64,000 nucleotides of DNA. Origin: Promethearchaeota archaeon (lineage in GTDB: Archaea; Asgardarchaeota; Lokiarchaeia; Sigyniarchaeales; SOKP01). The notes below the pieces were generated by a model that did not search any database, was not told where the DNA came from, and worked only from the letters and a program-made list of their open reading frames with translations. A program made the translations under genes and the position numbers. The stretch is from contig JAHPZA010000004.1 of the NCBI GenBank assembly GCA_019058445.1, forward strand, positions 1 through 64,000, written 5' to 3'. Of the stretch, positions 279-60,166 are shown in pieces (position 1 is the first letter of the stretch; the number at the start of each line of letters is the position of its first letter).

Positions 279-704
279 ATGATTAAATATACAAGTGAAC
301 TGTTTGCTATTGATTGGGAAGAAGTAGCTGATGTAATTGCTGAAGCACCTCTAGGAACATATAGACGTAACCCATTTAAGCTAAAAAGAGCTTTTGAGTC
401 AAGTTACCTAGTGAATTTTGTATTTGATGATGATAAGTTAATAGGAATGGGAAGAGCATTATGTGATGGTGAGTTTCAAGCAGCTTTATATGATATTGTT
501 TTGTTACCCGAATATCAAGGTAAGGGAATAGGAAAAAAGTTAGTAAACCGATTATGTTCCCAATTACCTGTTGAAAATATTATTTTGTATTCAGTTCCAG
601 GTCATGAAGGGTTTTATGTTAAGTGTGGATTTAAAAAAATGCGTACAGGCATGGCAATATTTGATGCAACTAAGTCAAAAATAGAAAGTGGATATTTAGA
701 ATAA
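279..704 (+). CDS. GNAT family N-acetyltransferase
   Basis: Predicted acetyl-CoA-dependent N-acetyltransferase of 141 residues, a normal length for a single GNAT domain. The acetyl-CoA-binding motif A is seen as QGKGIGKKLVNRL after the strand ALYDIVLLPEY. The C-terminal part (GFYVKCGFKKMRTGMAIF) is the usual motif B region. The substrate cannot be told from the sequence; small molecules, antibiotics or protein N-termini are all possible. It stands alone, and its stop codon abuts the first copy of a short intergenic repeat. The ATG follows a T-rich, AT-only stretch without a clear Shine-Dalgarno site, so a short or absent leader is likely. The family call is firm; the role is unknown. Confidence 0.85.
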   Translation: MIKYTSELFAIDWEEVADVIAEAPLGTYRRNPFKLKRAFESSYLVNFVFDDDKLIGMGRALCDGEFQAALYDIVLLPEYQGKGIGKKLVNRLCSQLPVENIILYSVPGHEGFYVKCGFKKMRTGMAIFDATKSKIESGYLE

Positions 705-790
705 GGCCCCATGGAATGCAAATACTAAAAAATTTATTAGAACTTTATGAAAGACAGAATAAGAAAATAATAATTAAATTATTAGAGTAA
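705..790 (+). repeat. Intergenic repeat, copy 1
   Basis: This is the first of several related segments between genes of the first 11 kb. The shared core is ATGGAATGCAAATACTAAAA followed by AATTTATTAGAACTT. Read as protein it gives MQILKNLLELYERQNKK followed by IIIKLLE and a stop (716-790), the longest version of the peptide. The other copies are at 1645-1740, 7322-7380, 8277-8376 and, weakly, 10763-10830, all on the plus strand. The copies differ mostly by substitutions. It may be a decayed small gene family or a mobile-element remnant. Confidence 0.55.
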
Positions 791-801
791 AAATTGAGAA
801 T

Positions 802-1413
802 TTATTTAGATTTTTTTAATTTGGGAAATAATGCTCCAGTTGTTTCTTGATATTTCCGATATTTAACACCGAATCGTCTTATAAGATCTTTTTCTTCATA
901 GTGAATCATAATAGGGGTATATAAAATAATAAATATTGAAGAAATCATAACTAAAAACCAAGAATTAAAAGCGAAACTGAGTGCGACAAATGTAGGAAAC
1001 TCTCCAAGTGTCTGTGGATGTCTAATATATTTATAAATTCCACCATACATTTCTGTATCTTTGGATGGGCTAAGAGTCTCGGAACCTGCTGCTTTAACTC
1101 CTAAAATCATTATTATAAGGCATGGAGTAGCAATGCAAATTGCTATAGTAATTCCAATCCATATGTTGGGACTTATTATGCAAGAATTAACAATTGGAAG
1201 GGGAAACCATATCCAAATTATTAAATTGATCACCGAAATCAATTCAAAGAATCCTCCTATAGTACGAAATTTCTTACAATCCTTCCATGCTTTTTCTCCA
1301 TATTTTTCGGATCGTTTTACAGGTTGAATACTTAAGAGATATAAATATCCCATTCCCAATAAAGATATTATTAAAGAACTAAAATTTATTAAAGCAATAA
1401 TCGTTTGAACCAC
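802..1413 (-). CDS. Isoprenylcysteine carboxyl methyltransferase-like membrane protein
   Basis: Polytopic membrane protein of 203 residues with about five hydrophobic segments. The C-terminal part carries the signature of the ICMT/phospholipid methyltransferase superfamily: YIRHPQTLGE for SAM binding, then two helices, then EEKDLIRRFGVKYRKYQ. Members methylate a prenylcysteine carboxylate or a lipid amine at the membrane face using S-adenosylmethionine. The substrate here cannot be assigned; archaeal and bacterial relatives often act on small lipophilic molecules. The gene is monocistronic and convergent with the GNAT gene upstream. Confidence 0.75.
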   Translation of the reverse strand: MVQTIIALINFSSLIISLLGMGYLYLLSIQPVKRSEKYGEKAWKDCKKFRTIGGFFELISVINLIIWIWFPLPIVNSCIISPNIWIGITIAICIATPCLIIMILGVKAAGSETLSPSKDTEMYGGIYKYIRHPQTLGEFPTFVALSFAFNSWFLVMISSIFIILYTPIMIHYEEKDLIRRFGVKYRKYQETTGALFPKLKKSK

Positions 1414-1644
1414 GCTCTTTTAGATATTATTTTAAATTTTCAATGTACTTGTTGTAAATTTTAAATAAAATAAATTTATTTTATTAAGATATAATTATTT
1501 CGCTATAATTTATATATTTGCCAAAAGCATTTATTTCTTTTACAATTTTTCTAAATACATTGAATTTTTCGGAGATTGTGAAAATTACGGATATACTGTA
1601 AATTAAATAATTTTTTTCTTTTAATTAAAATTTCTTTATCATCC

Positions 1645-1740
1645 CGAATCAATAAGAATGAAACCCTATGGAATACAAATACTAAAAAATTTCTTGGAAT
1701 TATAAATTAAGAAAATTTATCCAGAGATTCTTGATGAAAA
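1645..1740 (+). repeat. Intergenic repeat, copy 2
   Basis: This copy contains a 15-codon frame (1658-1705) reading MKPYGIQILKNFLEL and a stop. Similarity to the copy at 8277-8376 extends past both ends, from a CCC(G/T)AATCAATA-like start to a TTCTTGATG-like end, so the repeated unit is about 95 bases and not just the peptide core. It lies in the 522-base gap 1414-1935, which otherwise holds AT-rich sequence and the Kelch relic. Confidence 0.55.
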
Positions 1741-1746
1741 AAAAAA

Positions 1747-1911
1747 TTAAGATAATTGTTATGAAGATTTAACACCCACGTTTCACTATTGCAACCATTA
1801 GTATCTTTACCACCATACAAGACCACTCAGTCTTACGTAGATTCATGAACCATCAAATGTTCATACCTTGCACTTGGTTTGCCATTGGAAGGGTTCCTTT
1901 TCATCAAGGAA
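1747..1911 (-). pseudogene. Decayed Kelch-repeat protein fragment
   Basis: Reading the minus strand in one frame gives NPSNGKPSARYEHLMVHEST, stop, D, stop, then VVLYGGKDTNGCNSETWVLN. This is one Kelch/galactose-oxidase-type blade (P-ARY-H-MV, then VVLYGG and TWVL). Two in-frame stops, at 1833-1835 and 1827-1829, sit exactly where family members carry polar or basic residues (a D-R-V-V-L type turn), so they look like nonsense mutations. No start codon or further blades are seen nearby. The stretch is visibly less AT-rich than its flanks. I read it as the remnant of a larger Kelch protein, deleted on both sides. Confidence 0.6.
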
Positions 1912-1935
1912 TTATTAGTATAATTAATTTTTTTA

Positions 1936-2763
1936 CTAATTTGTTTCGAGCTTTCTAATTTTTTTTAGTAGATCCGTTGCATCCTTAAACTTTTGTGTCG
2001 CTAATGTAAAAACTTCTGAATCATATTCTCCACTTGGTAAATTTTGAGAAAAGAATTCAAAAGATAATTGAATACTCTGTAAAATATTCCCTAAATCGTG
2101 AGAATAATTATCTATTAGCTTTGAATTTAGATAACTGCTGTGATTATATTCGATATGAATTAAAAAAATTAGCATTAATAGCTGACTGTTAATAATTCCA
2201 CAAAAATAGATATTGATAAAAATCTCATTTTTAAGATAATAGACATCAAAGATTGATCCATTTGCGGTAATTATGAATGAAATTGGAAGAAAAACAAGAC
2301 TATTTATTATAAATCCGTAATACCATACAATACTCTTGCCAATTTGCTTTTTAAAATTTGAATATCTTAAGAGAGGAGTCATAATTAATATAACGAAAGT
2401 AATAAGAAAGATGATTACTCCTACATTTGATGCAATTTCTTCACCTAAAAAATAAAATAGACAAAATATAATTGTAATTACTATTCCAATAATTTCCATT
2501 ATTGATTTTACTTTAATTTCTATATAATACGTTAATAGCCCAGCTGTATTAAAAATCATTCCAAGAGATCCAAAAAAGGTGTTTAAAAATGAACTCAAAA
2601 AAAAAAGTACTGCAATTTCAGCTAAAAAATAACAATTCCATGCTATTATGAAATAGATAAATTTGATCTCTTTTTTTCTGATAAAAAAGTCAATTGAAAC
2701 AAATATACCAACAATTCTTAAAACTGAACCTACAATAATGTAAGCTATTACTAGTGGTTCCAT
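1936..2763 (-). CDS. Multi-pass membrane protein with a C-terminal HisKA-like helix, lacking an ATPase domain
   Basis: About seven to eight hydrophobic segments fill residues 1-205. They are followed by a short cytoplasmic tail with the dimerisation/phosphoacceptor-like motif NYSHDLGNILQSIQLSFEF. The same motif (AHDMGNILSNIMSSIQLIE) occurs in the complete histidine kinase at 8846-10735, where an ATP-binding domain follows. Here the protein stops about 60 residues after the histidine, and no HATPase frame is seen downstream, where the Kelch relic lies. It is either a truncated sensor kinase or a deliberate kinase-less sensor that dimerises with other kinases or is phosphorylated by them. Confidence 0.55.
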   Translation of the reverse strand: MEPLVIAYIIVGSVLRIVGIFVSIDFFIRKKEIKFIYFIIAWNCYFLAEIAVLFFLSSFLNTFFGSLGMIFNTAGLLTYYIEIKVKSIMEIIGIVITIIFCLFYFLGEEIASNVGVIIFLITFVILIMTPLLRYSNFKKQIGKSIVWYYGFIINSLVFLPISFIITANGSIFDVYYLKNEIFINIYFCGIINSQLLMLIFLIHIEYNHSSYLNSKLIDNYSHDLGNILQSIQLSFEFFSQNLPSGEYDSEVFTLATQKFKDATDLLKKIRKLETN

Positions 2764-2963
2764 TATTCTTATCCCTATGAAATACTAATTATTTATGGAA
2801 CTTCCTATATTTATAGTTTTGCTAGTTATTTTGTTCATACAGATAGAAGATTAATCCCTACAGCTGATAAATTCTCAGAAAAATCAGAAATCATTTTTAA
2901 AAATTAAAAAAAAAAATAATTTTATTTTAAGATAAATCCTCACTGAGCAACGTTAATTTGGAA

Positions 2964-3911
2964 TTAAACATATTTAGCATAATAATCTAACATTATTTGT
3001 GGCTTATGGCCAAAATAATTATAGGTATCAAATCGATGCAGCGGTTCCTCTTCTTCCAAGAAGAGTAGTTCTTTAGGTTCAGGAGATTTATCATAATAAG
3101 CTTGGATATCATCAAGAGACGCCCATTTATCAGTTTTAGCTTGAATATAGAAAACCGGGCAAGGAATACTATGACAATAATTTAATGGGCTCATTTCGCT
3201 AAACCATTTTCCACTCCAAATTCGACTGATTAAGGTTACTAGGGGAACCATCATTATAGCCATAATAACTGTATATAAGGATTTCACAAGTCTCCATACA
3301 AGGGTATTTCCCGAAATGGGTTGAACCGCTATCATACATTTTATATTTTGAAACAAGTCAGGTCTTTTATTCATTGCGATAATTATGGAATTTGCTCCAG
3401 TGCAAAAACCTAAAAAAGCCTTATCTTGATTTTTTAAATCATCTCGAGAATTAATATAATTCATTGTTCCAATAACATCCTTATATTCATCAAGACCAAT
3501 ATAAACTTTTTTAGTTTTACTTTTACCACTTTCTCCATGATTTCTCAAGTCAAAAAATAATACATTATAACCAGCTTCATTTAATTGTTTTACAGTAGGG
3601 AGAAATTTAACTGTGATTTTAGTTATTTTAGCTAATCCTTGGTTTTTTGGATCAAATCCGGCTCGACTAAAACTTGCAGGATGAACCATTATGATTAATT
3701 TTTTCGAACTTGAGGGGATGTACCACCCGTTTAATTCAACATTATCTTCAGTGTTATATGAAATATCTTCACATTTCATCCCGTAATCTTCTGGTGTTTC
3801 AGTTATGGGATGTACCATAGGATATAATAAAGATTTAGCAAAATAAATTCCCATTGCAAAATAGAACAATATTATAATCCCTATAATAATAAGAAATATT
3901 GTTGTGGTCAT
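2964..3911 (-). CDS. Membrane-anchored alpha/beta hydrolase with a cysteine nucleophile position
   Basis: A single N-terminal membrane helix (residues 4-26) anchors an alpha/beta hydrolase fold. The elements are MVHPASFSRAG (oxyanion strand), LFFDLRNHGESG, the nucleophile elbow GFCTG at residues 168-172, an aspartate in TDKWASLDD, and the late histidine in EEPLHRFD. The nucleophile is Cys170 rather than serine, as in dienelactone hydrolases. The substrate is unknown; an esterase or acyl-transfer role at the membrane is a reasonable inference. The gene is divergent from the HTH gene at 4112, and the gap between them holds a phased ACGT array. Confidence 0.7.
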   Translation of the reverse strand: MTTTIFLIIIGIIILFYFAMGIYFAKSLLYPMVHPITETPEDYGMKCEDISYNTEDNVELNGWYIPSSSKKLIIMVHPASFSRAGFDPKNQGLAKITKITVKFLPTVKQLNEAGYNVLFFDLRNHGESGKSKTKKVYIGLDEYKDVIGTMNYINSRDDLKNQDKAFLGFCTGANSIIIAMNKRPDLFQNIKCMIAVQPISGNTLVWRLVKSLYTVIMAIMMVPLVTLISRIWSGKWFSEMSPLNYCHSIPCPVFYIQAKTDKWASLDDIQAYYDKSPEPKELLFLEEEEPLHRFDTYNYFGHKPQIMLDYYAKYV

Positions 3912-3970
3912 TTTTTTTGAGTCACATTGATTTATTTTTAATTAATACAAAGAAACTTTCTTTACAGAAA

Positions 3971-4079
3971 AATTACGTTGCATATAATGATAAAATAATA
4001 CGTTTTTTTTTATTTAAAAATTTTACGTTTTATTCAATCTAAATTTATTACGTGGCAAATTCCCAATAAAATGAAACGT
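3971..4079. promoter_or_regulatory. Phased array of five ACGT sites
   Basis: ACGT occurs at 3975, 4000, 4025, 4050 and 4076, a spacing of 25, 25, 25 and 26 bases. In the first four copies the preceding base is T (TTACGT three times, ATACGT once); the last is AAACGT. The final copy abuts the TATA-like TTTATAATT at 4079-4087, about 25 bases before the ATG at 4112. The array lies between the divergent hydrolase and HTH genes, so it is a candidate cooperative operator, perhaps autoregulatory. Confidence 0.55.
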
Positions 4080-4111
4080 TTATAATTCAAAAATCATTTA
4101 ATAATAATATT

Positions 4112-4825
4112 ATGAATCAAGAAATAGAACCAATTTCCCCGTCTAAAAATTTAGAAATTATTGAGCAGTTAGGAAACATAATTACCGAAGATAAAGTAGA
4201 TTTTTTAATCATTTTACTCTTAACTGTTTTTAATGAATTAAAACTATCTGAACTGGCAAATTATTCTAAGAAGTCCAAAACGACAATATCACGTCATATT
4301 TATGCTATTAATAGGAAATTTAAGAACTTGATTCTATCCAGAGAATTAAAAGTAAGAGGAAATATCCCAGCTAAAGTTTATAGAATCGATCCCCTAACTA
4401 GACAAAAAATTATGTCGATGGATGTGGATGCGCAATTAATATACCAACATCCAGATTTAATCTCATTCCTTCCAATGCTGCTATCATTAAATCGTACAAC
4501 GGTATTTATAATACAGAATCTCCATGAGAATCTCATTTCCTTTTTCGATTTTTTAGAAGAAGATTTAGAAAAATTAAGAGATAAAGAAGAAGCCCCCATG
4601 TACAGCAAAATAGTTCAAAATATGCCAAATTTTGAAGCAACATATAATAAACATCTTATCTTTTTAACAGAATCCCAGAAAAACAAGATAATTCCCTTAT
4701 ACTTAAGTTTCATCGAAAAAATGCTTAAAATTTTACAGGAAACCACATCAGAAGATAAACAACCTTATTTATTCTATAATATTCTTATTGATTTAGAAAA
4801 AATCTTATCAAATAGGAAGAAATAA
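4112..4825 (+). CDS. Winged-helix transcriptional regulator
   Basis: The 237-residue protein has an N-terminal helix-turn-helix around residues 25-75, with recognition-helix region ELANYSKKSKTTISRHIYAI, resembling ArsR/MarR-type winged helices. The rest is an all-helical effector or dimerisation part that I do not recognise, with no cysteine or metal-binding cluster. The ATG lies about 25 bases after a TATA-like box, so the mRNA is probably leaderless. The upstream phased ACGT array and the divergent hydrolase suggest local regulation of both genes. The ligand is unknown. Confidence 0.65.
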   Translation: MNQEIEPISPSKNLEIIEQLGNIITEDKVDFLIILLLTVFNELKLSELANYSKKSKTTISRHIYAINRKFKNLILSRELKVRGNIPAKVYRIDPLTRQKIMSMDVDAQLIYQHPDLISFLPMLLSLNRTTVFIIQNLHENLISFFDFLEEDLEKLRDKEEAPMYSKIVQNMPNFEATYNKHLIFLTESQKNKIIPLYLSFIEKMLKILQETTSEDKQPYLFYNILIDLEKILSNRKK

Positions 4826-57788: not shown

Positions 57789-58181
57789 ATGCCTTTAGTT
57801 AGAGTAGAGATTTTAAAAGGAAAAAGCTCAGAATATAAAAGAGCCATACTAAATGGAATTCATGCCGCTTTAAAAGAAGCTTTAAAAATCCCCGATTATG
57901 ATAGAACACAACGATTATATGAGCTCGATAAATCTAACTTCGAAATTCATAGACAAAGATCAGAAAACTATACAATAATCGAAATAACCATGTTTAGAGG
58001 TCGAAGTCTCGAAGCGAAAAGAAAGCTATATTCAGAAATTGTGAAGAATCTAAAATGTGCCCCAGGAATCGATGGAATGGATATTGTAATTGTTGTACAT
58101 GAGCCTAAATTAGAGAATTGGGGTATTCGAGGAGGAAAACTTCCAAATGAGGCGGGATTAGAATTTAAAATCGAAGTCTAA
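57789..58181 (+). CDS. Tautomerase superfamily protein
   Basis: The 130-residue protein begins MPLVRVEILKGKSSEYKRA. The catalytic proline follows the initiator methionine, and the beta-alpha-beta pattern occurs twice (the second half is IIEITMFRGRSLEAKRKLY). The length fits the two-unit tautomerases rather than the 62-residue 4-oxalocrotonate type. The C-terminal ENWGIRGGKLPNE is typical of this longer group. Members catalyse keto-enol tautomerisation or dehalogenation through Pro1. The substrate is unknown. Confidence 0.8.
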   Translation: MPLVRVEILKGKSSEYKRAILNGIHAALKEALKIPDYDRTQRLYELDKSNFEIHRQRSENYTIIEITMFRGRSLEAKRKLYSEIVKNLKCAPGIDGMDIVIVVHEPKLENWGIRGGKLPNEAGLEFKIEV

Positions 58182-58311
58182 CAATTAATTTTTTTTTTTA
58201 AATTATAGCATTAGTTTTTAATCCAATCTGATTGATAGTAAATAGATCTTATCTATTATCGGAAAGAATGGTCAGAAAACAAAAAGTTTTTAACATATGA
58301 GATTATTTTTT

Positions 58312-58319
58312 TTTATAAT
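58312..58319 (+). promoter_or_regulatory. TATA box of the leucine-leader transcript
   Basis: TTTATAAT, preceded by a run of T residues, lies about 27 bases before 58341-58346. Transcription would therefore start only a few bases before the leader ATG at 58346, making the leader peptide leaderless or nearly so. Confidence 0.5.
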
Positions 58320-58345
58320 TAACAACTACATTGGGAATAAAAAAA

Positions 58346-58459
58346 ATGAAAACGCTTCGAAAAAGCATTACTTTTGATATAAAAATAAGTTTGAGGCGAA
58401 TTTCTTCCCTAGTCTTGTTGTTAAGTTTATTAGATCTACTTTTATTATTATTACTTTAA
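58346..58459 (+). CDS. Leucine-rich leader peptide
   Basis: A 37-codon frame upstream of the isopropylmalate-synthase-type gene. Fifteen of its residues are leucine, and the last 16 residues are LVLLLSLLDLLLLLLL, ending with seven consecutive leucine codons (CTA, CTT, four TTA, CTT) before TAA. The N-terminal part (MKTLRKSITFDIKISLRR) is basic. This is the hallmark of a leader peptide that senses charged leucyl-tRNA, as upstream of bacterial leu operons. The stop codon lies directly before the first arm of a competing hairpin. A short hydrophobic peptide with another role is the alternative. Confidence 0.75.
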   Translation: MKTLRKSITFDIKISLRRISSLVLLLSLLDLLLLLLL

Positions 58460-58498
58460 GCCTCGTCTCGTTTTATAATATTTGAGGTCTTTGATCTC
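58393..58498 (+). promoter_or_regulatory. Attenuator-like competing hairpins after the leader peptide
   Basis: Arm 1, GAGGC (58393-58397), can pair with arm 2, GCCTC (58460-58464). Arm 2's CCTC can pair instead with arm 3, GAGG (58484-58487). Arm 3 also opens a 6-bp hairpin GAGGTC-TTT-GATCTC (58484-58498, one G-T pair). A ribosome stalled in the leucine run leaves arm 2 free to pair with arm 3; a ribosome at the stop covers arm 2 and lets the 3:4 hairpin form. Only two T residues follow the hairpin, so a strong terminator is not obvious. Confidence 0.55.
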
Positions 58499-58552
58499 TT
58501 ATAAACGTGGTGGGGCGTTGTAATATAAATAAATCAAATTAGGTAATTTAAA

Positions 58553-60166
58553 ATGACAGAAAAAGAGGACATATATGTCTCGCAGATGATGGATAAAATA
58601 CGAGGGTCATTGATCCTTCCTGAAAGGGCGTATTTTTTTGATACGACCCTTCGTGATGGAGAACAGACACCAGGAATTAGTTTCAATCATGAAGAAAAAT
58701 TATCAATAGCTCAAGCTTTAAATGAACTAGGGATTGATATCATTGAGGCTGGATTTCCCGTTATTTCTGAGGGAGATTTTAAAGCATGCAAAGATATTTC
58801 TAAAATGGGTTTAGATTCCGAAATAATGGGTTTAGCTCGCATAAAGAAAATCGACATTGATAAAGTTATTGAAGCAGATATGGATAGCATACACGTGTTT
58901 ATTGCAACTTCAGATCTTCACATGAAAGAAAAATTGCAGATGACACGAGAAGAAGTATTAAAGGATATAGCAGAACTAACTTCATATGCTAAGGAGCATT
59001 ATTCAACAGTTTTATTTTCAGCAGAGGATGCAACACGGTCTGACTTGGATTTTTTAATTAAAGCTAATAAAACTGCTGTTGAAAGTGGCGCTACTCGGGT
59101 AAATATACCAGATACTGTTGGTACCATAACTCCTAATGCTTTTGGTTATATCATTCGAAAAAATTATGAAGCACTACCTAAAAACATAAGAATTGCCGCT
59201 CACTGCCATAACGATTTTGGATTGGCAGTTGCAAATACTATTGCTGCGTTTGAGAATGGGGCGTCTGAGGCACAAACTACAATAATAGGATTAGGAGAAC
59301 GAGCGGGAAACGCGGCTTTCGAGGAAACAGCCATGTCTCTTTATGCTTTATATCGAATACCTATGAATATCAATACCAGAAAAATTTTTCCTACAGCAAA
59401 ATTAATAGAAAGCTATTGTGGTGGAAAGATTAAAATAGGAAGATTGCAGCCATTAATCGGCCAAAATGCGTTTGCCCATGAATCTGGCATTCATGCTCAT
59501 GGAATGATAAAACATGCGCGTGTGTATGAACCAATTACACCAGAATTGATAGGAATTCGACGCTCTGATGATGTTGAGCAAATAGTTAAAAAATCGATTA
59601 AATTAGGAAAGCATACAGGAGGGCATGCCCTTAAAGCAAAATTAGAGGATTTAGGAATTCATCCTACAGATATACAATTTAGAAAAATCTTCGATCATAT
59701 CAAAAGATTTGGAGATAAAGGGCATGAAGTAATGGAAGAAGATTTTTTAGCAATTGTAAAAGATGTTATGGGTGAACTACCCGAAGAAGAGCAATATGTA
59801 AAAATTGAGGAACTGACGGTTTTAACCGGCTCCGTTACTCCTACCAGTACCGTTAGGTTAAAGATTCGTAATAATGGAGATTATATAGAAAGAACTGAAT
59901 CTTCTATAGGCGTAGGTCCTGTTGATGCATCATGTAGAGCAATAGTTAAATGCTTTGAGCCTATGAGTAAAGTTAAGCTTTTGGAATATAATATTGATGC
60001 TGTGACTGGAGGAACTGAAGCTTTAGGACATGTTTCCATTGAGTTAATGGATTTAGAAACTAATAATATTGTAAGGGCATCTGCTGCTCATGAGGATATA
60101 GTAATGAGCTCCGTACTTGCGCTTATAAAAGGACTCAATCGTATCGTGAAAGATAAAAATCCATAA
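58553..60166 (+). CDS. leuA: 2-Isopropylmalate synthase-type acyltransferase
   Basis: The 537-residue enzyme of the LeuA/citramalate/homocitrate synthase family condenses acetyl-CoA with a 2-oxoacid. It has the catalytic barrel (FDTTLRDGEQTPGISF; the AAHCHNDFGLAVANT metal site; GLGERAGNAAFEE) and the subdomains leading to HESGIHAHGM. The C-terminal regulatory LeuA dimer domain (about 415-530) is the site of leucine or isoleucine feedback. Sequence alone does not fully separate LeuA from citramalate synthase, but the leucine-coded leader just upstream argues for leucine biosynthesis. No leuB, leuC or leuD is adjacent. Confidence 0.85.
   Translation: MTEKEDIYVSQMMDKIRGSLILPERAYFFDTTLRDGEQTPGISFNHEEKLSIAQALNELGIDIIEAGFPVISEGDFKACKDISKMGLDSEIMGLARIKKIDIDKVIEADMDSIHVFIATSDLHMKEKLQMTREEVLKDIAELTSYAKEHYSTVLFSAEDATRSDLDFLIKANKTAVESGATRVNIPDTVGTITPNAFGYIIRKNYEALPKNIRIAAHCHNDFGLAVANTIAAFENGASEAQTTIIGLGERAGNAAFEETAMSLYALYRIPMNINTRKIFPTAKLIESYCGGKIKIGRLQPLIGQNAFAHESGIHAHGMIKHARVYEPITPELIGIRRSDDVEQIVKKSIKLGKHTGGHALKAKLEDLGIHPTDIQFRKIFDHIKRFGDKGHEVMEEDFLAIVKDVMGELPEEEQYVKIEELTVLTGSVTPTSTVRLKIRNNGDYIERTESSIGVGPVDASCRAIVKCFEPMSKVKLLEYNIDAVTGGTEALGHVSIELMDLETNNIVRASAAHEDIVMSSVLALIKGLNRIVKDKNP

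Follow-up and report, generated by a model that had tools for sequence, protein, structure and literature searches.

A leucine-coded leader peptide and a conserved hairpin upstream of leuA in Lokiarchaea: a candidate archaeal attenuator

Introduction

Can an archaeon gauge its leucine supply on a short leader peptide? In bacteria, leader peptides that read codons are textbook material: the leu, ilv, and trp operons carry leader-peptide transcription attenuators of the Escherichia coli leuL and trpL type. The question is raised for archaea by leuA, the gene for 2-isopropylmalate synthase, on contig JAHPZA010000004.1 of a Promethearchaeota archaeon (assembly GCA_019058445.1), of which positions 1 to 64,000 were analyzed (the window). 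The gene occupies 58553–60166 of the forward strand and encodes 537 residues (NF002085, 581.8 bits; cut-off, 517). Its closest named relatives come from Lokiarchaeota metagenome-assembled genomes, with a top identity of 95%. The original prediction, made from the window alone, described a leucine-coded leader peptide and competing hairpins upstream of this gene.

We favor the view that leuA has a leucine-sensing leader, worked by the ribosome that translates the short leader peptide, at a probability of roughly 0.78. Three features read from the sequences suggest it: selection for leucine codons; conservation of a hairpin that abuts the leader stop codon; and a match between codon and pathway for two amino acids. 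Lokiarchaea are related to the ancestors of eukaryotic cells, our own included, and Asgard archaea are the group nearest the eukaryotes. If the reading is true, Asgard archaea gauge amino acids by the pace of the translating ribosome, and translation must act on gene output in cis.

A leader coded for leucine

The gap upstream of leuA, recounted as 58182–58552, indeed measures 371 nucleotides (nt). It contains an open reading frame (ORF), MKTLRKSITFDIKISLRRISSLVLLLSLLDLLLLLLL, at 58346–58459 on the forward strand. As originally described, this frame has 37 codons, 15 of them for leucine, and ends in TAA; the last seven codons (CTA CTT TTA TTA TTA TTA CTT, 58436–58456) form an unbroken leucine run, the proposed sensor.

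Orthologs of leuA (E ≤ 1e-100) are present in 32 of 65 genomes of the window's family, 41 of 79 of its order, 45 of 83 of its class, and 62 of 227 of its phylum. All 32 family genomes with leuA carry an upstream ORF that closes, or nearly closes, with a leucine run, its stop codon lying 87–132 nt before leuA. (Loci L033–L046 and L049 were treated as repeats of loci already counted, L045 being L055, and were left out of the counts.) At least four leucines are consecutive in 29 leaders and three in the others (L023, L025, and L026), the weakest being L026, which reads LHLLLRYL. Another leader, L027, is interrupted by a contig edge, yet reads LLLLNLLLLLL-stop. The stop codon itself is not fixed: TAA, TAG, and TGA all occur.

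Selection acts at the level of the codon. The last eight codon columns of the 31 distinct leaders hold 197 leucine codons and no phenylalanine codon (TTT or TTC), compared with 151.1 ± 3.4 (maximum, 162) and 25.9 ± 3.0 (minimum, 15) in 5000 shuffles of the nucleotide columns; the shuffles ignore the relatedness of the leaders, and the margin is nonetheless large. Across the final ten codons, 40% of codon differences are synonymous in the leader frame, versus 2% and 12% in the other frames. Chance, by which A/T-rich DNA would simply yield TTA repeats, can practically be dismissed. TTA is the commonest codon of the run, as chance would predict, but CTT and CTC occur in the last eight columns and TTT and TTC never do; only four of 12,207 stop codons in 184 kb of the window genome, the leader's included, follow at least five leucines in six codons; the run is conserved in 32 of 32 loci; and the leuC control loci lack a terminal run.

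Were the leader peptide itself a small membrane protein with a function of its own, encoded on the leuA transcript, the hydrophobic carboxyl terminus would be accounted for. The amino-terminal half, however, is poorly conserved in the family, and the geometry of hairpin and stop codon, like the parallel tryptophan leaders (below), would go unexplained; such a protein is highly improbable. Codon by codon, the comparison strongly supports a leader peptide coded for leucine. This part of the original prediction is borne out by the leader's presence in all 32 family loci, the codon-level selection, and the tryptophan parallel.

A hairpin against the stop codon

Immediately past the stop codon, the window is predicted to fold into a hairpin at 58460–58516 (GCCTCGTC...GGTGGGGC; –20.5 kcal/mol, z –3.75), with its 5′ arm at 58460–58467 and its 3′ arm at 58509–58516. 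Folded one sequence at a time, the family leaders give hairpins of 47–66 nt, which start 0–4 nt past the stop codon in 23 of 32 sequences and include stop-codon bases in the other nine. The distance from the hairpin end to the leuA ATG is similarly confined: 32–43 nt in 29 of 32 (34–40 nt in 24), and 52–73 nt in L005, L008, and L013. The mean z is –3.14 over 34 sequences, 24 of them below –2; control folds from inside leuA average –0.18, with one of 30 below –2 (the window's own control).

The two arms appear to be matched to each other. Cognate arms pair at –11.85 kcal/mol and arms swapped between species at –7.27, a difference reached in none of 5000 permutations. (L027, at a contig edge, and L031, whose last 14 codons equal those of L029, were left out of the arm-swap, TATA, post-hairpin composition, and constraint-folding analyses; L027 was also left out of the start-helix and linker analyses.) In a subset of 18 alignable sequences, 12 of the 19 pairs of the stem show double changes, compared with 7.3 in shuffles, and 76.8% of cells are paired, compared with 48–59% when the stem is slid out of register. 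The sequence of the hairpin drifts while its pairing persists.

This drift bears on the possibility that the region binds a regulatory protein or RNA-binding factor, with the ORF incidental or secondary. The hairpin is stable and conserved, as a binding site might be, and for the closest outward relative, the LEU element of Actinobacteria, the accessible part of the report suggests such a factor and describes the leucine codons as dispensable (PMC1262725). Retention of pairing despite changing sequence argues against a binding site, as do codon-level selection and the complete lack of phenylalanine codons, and we consider it quite unlikely. On this comparative evidence, both the leucine leader and the hairpin that follows it are genuine, conserved features under selection.

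The region of the 3′ arm is also the stretch most complementary to an archaeal anti-Shine-Dalgarno sequence, at a mean of –5.4 kcal/mol. It may be a standby site for ribosomes, or the match may be a by-product of pairing with the pyrimidine-rich 5′ arm.

A second helix and alternative pairings

A second helix joins the start region of the leader to codons 15–18 or thereabouts (cognate, –9.18 kcal/mol; swapped, –6.98; none of 5000 permutations as low). Its arms in the window are CGCTTCGAA at 58353–58361, overlapping the first leader codons, and TTTGAGGCG at 58390–58398, both on the forward strand. Counterparts include CTACTCAAAA/TTTTGAGTGG in L008 and AACACTTC/GAAGTGTT in L023. Counted by eye from the listing, the helix is present in 17 of 31 family sequences, with a shifted version in L019.

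Other pairings fare less well. The original prediction envisaged two exclusive pairings downstream of the frame, CCTC with GAGG or a GAGGTC-TTT-GATCTC hairpin, governed by the four-arm stall logic of bacterial leaders. These rival arms are not conserved: the CCTC/GAGG pairing is absent from the predicted fold, and the supposed rival hairpin is in fact the nested apex of the conserved hairpin in the window species. The four-arm logic itself also loses ground, in that the classical antiterminator pairing of arms 2 and 3 lacks clear support (cognate, –4.95; swapped, –4.52; 358 of 5000 as low) and the leucine run sits just before the hairpin. Pairing of the leucine run with the linker and the Shine-Dalgarno (SD) sequence of leuA was rejected, as cognate pairs are no better than swapped ones (–6.54 and –6.56; 2606 of 5000 as low).

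Tryptophan leaders

Codon-specific attenuation predicts that leaders of other pathways are coded for the respective amino acid, which provides an independent test. Genes of the trpE type (PF00425, E ≤ 1e-30) are present in 11 of the 65 family genomes; the other trp genes are named here from visual inspection of protein starts. Five of these genomes have trpE as the first gene, and in each of the five an ORF 146–162 nt upstream ends TW[FV]WxWRWH[AV]-stop, for example TWFWAWRWHA-stop. Scanning the DNA of 227 genomes for this pattern gave nine hits: the same five; G010 and G064; and two, in G083 and G104, that were rejected as chance matches inside apparent coding genes.

The other six genomes have trpE in an internal position, so the starts of their operons were inspected. 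There, G012 has MSVNRKNRISPLTWFWFWHWHA upstream of a trpA-type gene; in G004, G022, and G024 a trpD-type operon is preceded by frames ending FRWQWLWRA or FRWHWSWRA; and G013 and G014 have GWQMPWRY, with two tryptophans only, found after the threshold was lowered. Altogether a short tryptophan-coded ORF stands at 13 of the 13 trp operon starts examined in the family, with three or four tryptophans in 11 and two in two.

Structure accompanies these leaders as well. A hairpin with the stop codon in its loop is predicted for all eight four-tryptophan leaders and for the three-tryptophan leaders L226 and L227. The possible arms flanking the stop codon vary in step by type of leader: GCAC/GTGC, GCGC/GCGC, and GCGTT/AACGC. 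A run of at least six T within 140 nt of the leader occurs in ten of 13 cases against 5.7 expected, which is too weak for a claim of termination.

The tryptophan leaders also bear on the idea of an arrest peptide, in which the nascent chain stalls the ribosome, perhaps at high leucine, so that the response would have the opposite sign. Long leucine runs make unusual nascent chains, and the run ends at a stop codon, a common place for nascent-chain arrest. However, the tryptophan leaders have a like layout with another sequence, and run length and interruptions vary among the leucine leaders, as in the LHLLLRYL noted above. We regard an arrest peptide as very unlikely.

Two further observations concern the trp loci. 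In G064 (contig C12, near 154380; L224/L232) the trpE frame behind an intact tryptophan leader stops short after 42 codons; either the leader outlived its gene or the assembly is at fault. In G014 and G013, the trp operon is preceded by a pair of neighboring ORFs, each of about 730 codons and apparently paralogous (L228, 196–4713; L230, reverse complement, 306–4820).

Distribution and control loci

The leader thins out quickly beyond the family. In sister family f3 it is present in two of three testable genomes (L057 and L058, and not L059), a fourth, G070, having no upstream DNA. Loci from other Asgard families (L060–L088) include some loosely leucine-rich frames, none with a terminal leucine run at the leader position, and no leader was found at six leuA loci of non-Lokiarchaeal archaea (L047, L048, and L050–L053, of which L051 has only 31 nt upstream). 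Four non-family relatives (L060, L064, L065, and L067, from G079, G080, G081, and G082) share a different motif, approximately GGATYGCGTTCTC, which ends 119–149 nt before the leuA match, has no Rfam match, and is perhaps another regulatory element.

Other pathways served as controls. No terminal leucine run was found at 17 stand-alone leuC loci (three of which, L159, L161, and L165, have only 150–310 nt upstream); four of the 17 (L158, L168, L169, and L171) have a loosely leucine- or isoleucine-rich frame. A leader of the expected residue was lacking before 30 ilvB-like, 29 aconitase-type (L143 has no upstream DNA), and 30 hisG loci, with the end of a histidine-rich frame about 1 kb 5′ of hisG in L191. 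None of 30 pheA loci has a convincing leader; L235 has a weak phenylalanine-rich frame. These scans reach about 400 nt 5′ of the most upstream in-frame start, so operons with another first gene can escape, as trp initially did.

Rfam families would include a leucine leader and T-boxes. The covariance models of Rfam 15 give no match in the window at the gathering score, and the best for the leader (E 0.39) is a microRNA model, far below that model's cut-off.

The gene leuC lies directly 3′ of leuA in 14 family genomes by coordinates (for example, on G041:C236, G053:C140, and G034:C24), where the leader would therefore govern both genes; in the window genome leuC is located away from leuA and has no leader (L155). 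Many of the 65 family genomes are incomplete: leuA occurs in only 32 and trpE in 11, and no protein attains the cut-off of the acetolactate synthase model TIGR00118. Amino-acid synthesis appears patchy or divergent across the family. Just 5′ of the leader region in the window, both halves of an ORF at 57789–58181 (forward strand) match tautomerase models below their cut-offs; the product is perhaps a fused 4-oxalocrotonate tautomerase.

Promoter, linker, and read-out

Where does the transcript begin? A TATA-like box, TTTATAAT at 58312–58319 on the forward strand, lies 34 nt 5′ of the leader ATG and is a probable promoter element. With a TATA-type weight matrix and a score threshold of at least 5, such boxes cluster relative to the leader ATG at –36 to –31 in 16 of 30 sequences and at –60 to –55 in 12 of 30, some sequences having both; remaining bins 5′ of and within the leader have 0–3 matches each. 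Relative to leuA, matches are fewer and scattered, with at most six of 30 in a bin (–30 to –25), and a box there would begin the transcript at about the ATG, omitting the conserved SD sequence. These clusters make it likely that transcription begins upstream of the leader, with the mRNA start near the leader ATG, and they speak against leuA transcripts that start downstream of 58460.

Between hairpin and gene lies an A-rich linker of 36 nt (58517–58552, forward strand) with an SD-like AGGT at 58541–58544. Hairpin and short linker together would draw the leader stop and the leuA start toward each other, as suits a constitutive helper ORF from which ribosomes reinitiate at leuA, boosting its translation irrespective of leucine. 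For bacteria, one report proposes such reinitiation at leader genes (PMC4833913). Against this, stop and start are 87–132 nt apart, whereas coupling is described as little to none above 30 nt in the accessible text of another (PMC12548453); moreover, a helper ORF does not explain why leucine codons precede leuA and tryptophan codons the trp operons. A helper ORF seems unlikely.

The original remark that the T tract is weak was apt: in 30 of 32 sequences the first 15 nt past the hairpin lack five consecutive T, and A and T make up 51% and 32% of the first 30 nt. An intrinsic terminator at leuA was rejected for lack of this U-tract, and the bacterial version based on one is not present here. Sequestration of the SD sequence, as in erm-type control, was rejected as well, because that sequence lies outside the hairpin and is similarly accessible in all modeled states.

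Constraint folding of 28 sequences (L055–L058 were also left out) points to a different role for the ribosome. Placed on the final leucine codon in the model, it raises the mean unpaired fraction of the 3′ arm from 0.15 to 0.44. Among the modeled stalls only this one opens the hairpin, so the arrangement is consistent with a ribosome at the run's end that directly covers the 5′ arm.

Proposed mechanism

From the comparative sequence evidence we infer ribosome-mediated, codon-specific attenuation in an archaeon; the promoter position, translation of the leader, stalling, and the direction of the response are what the model supplies. Transcription would start just 5′ of the leader ATG. With leucyl-tRNA plentiful, the ribosome would pass the leucine run, terminate, and depart; the hairpin would fold, and leuA expression would be low. 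With leucyl-tRNA scarce, the ribosome would linger on the last leucine codons and cover the 5′ arm, so that the hairpin would stay open and leuA be expressed. The trp operons of the family would use a like device that reads tryptophan codons.

How might the hairpin act? Leader and first trp gene are separated by anything from about 140 to 450 nt, and factor-dependent termination of the FttA (aCPSF1) type is therefore slightly favored over effects on mRNA translation or decay. The U-rich stretch at +35 to +44 past the leader stop (65% U at +35 to +39, then 45%) could serve FttA, a conjecture. In a broader and tentative proposal, which we hold possible rather than probable, Lokiarchaea have general attenuation for amino-acid operons, perhaps extending beyond leucine and tryptophan: a stalled ribosome would shield the hairpin and keep FttA from terminating, either as an archaeal invention or as retention of the device with non-bacterial hardware.

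Several observations weigh against a leucine-sensing leader. In structure, RNAalifold finds no consensus pair in the alignment of 31 leaders, presumably owing to the differences in hairpin length; the per-sequence folds, the tests of cognate against swapped arms, and the 18-sequence subset were therefore used. The count of 12 in 19 pairs comes from 18 of 32 family sequences picked for alignability (L011, L012, L013, L019, L021, L026–L032, L055, and L056 lie outside the subset), and slid versions of the stem still give 3–10 double-change pairs. The hairpin z is above –2 in ten of 34 sequences: six of genus g8, with L017, L019, L020, and L024. The start-region helix is absent from a good part of the family, and the pairing of arms 1 and 3, intended as a control, is reached in only 22 of 5000 permutations, so part of the signal for the hairpin and for the start-region helix may be shared ancestry. 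Among the tryptophan leaders, the minimum-energy folds of L225, L228, and L230 lack the stop-codon hairpin; L225 and L228 are able to form it, and the L230 version would carry a mismatch.

In function, a modeled stall six or eleven codons earlier leaves the hairpin closed, and no read-out is visible in the models: a run of five T follows the hairpin within 15 nt in only two of 32 sequences (L011 and L019), and in every state roughly half of the leuA ribosome site is unpaired (SD/ATG share 0.48–0.61 overall; 0.48 free and 0.54 stalled, 28 sequences). In distribution, the leader is restricted, as far as the sampled genomes tell, to one lineage and is not pan-Asgard. The check proposed with the original prediction was for a conserved leucine run with covarying arms upstream of leuA in related Asgard genomes; this held within the family, where every leuA locus has the run and the arms are co-adapted, and failed for the consensus fold and for other Asgard families.

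Comparison with known systems

No archaeal precedent for leader-peptide attenuation was found in the open-access literature among the matches listed, and absence there is not proof. Ribosome profiling of Methanosarcina mazei shows that small ORFs within 5′ untranslated regions are translated, and they make up 10% of the unannotated small ORFs; the accessible part of that report mentions no codon run, amino-acid pathway, or attenuation for them (PMC11456600).

The LEU element that precedes leuA in Actinobacteria, the closest published case, gives the most serious warning against inferring function from layout. There, according to the accessible text, leucine codons pair with the leuA SD box and a pseudoknot is proposed, and mutated leucine codons are reportedly without effect (PMC1262725), a result that also tells against leucine sensing here. 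Unlike the LEU element, the Lokiarchaeal leucine run has no cognate pairing to linker or SD sequence, and the hairpin lies past the stop codon.

In erm-type translation attenuation, a stalled leader ribosome opens a downstream hairpin, and the proposed leuA device would share this step. It differs in that the leuA SD sequence stands outside the hairpin. On the archaeal side, the accessible part of one report proposes FttA as a possible monitor of transcription-translation coupling, and its terminators are said to prefer U-rich RNA 30–36 nt behind the 3′ end (PMC11616081). The 65% U at +35 to +39 past the leader stop resembles this preference; that part of the report draws no connection to amino-acid-coded leaders, and such a link here is conjecture.

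From the leu and trp attenuators of bacteria, the Lokiarchaeal leader is set apart by its archaeal host and by the lack of a hairpin plus U-tract terminator; by regulatory codons that close the ORF and abut the hairpin; and by an antiterminator pairing without clear support. What it shares with them is the arrangement itself: a short ORF rich in codons for the end product, directly 5′ of the first biosynthetic gene and followed by hairpins.

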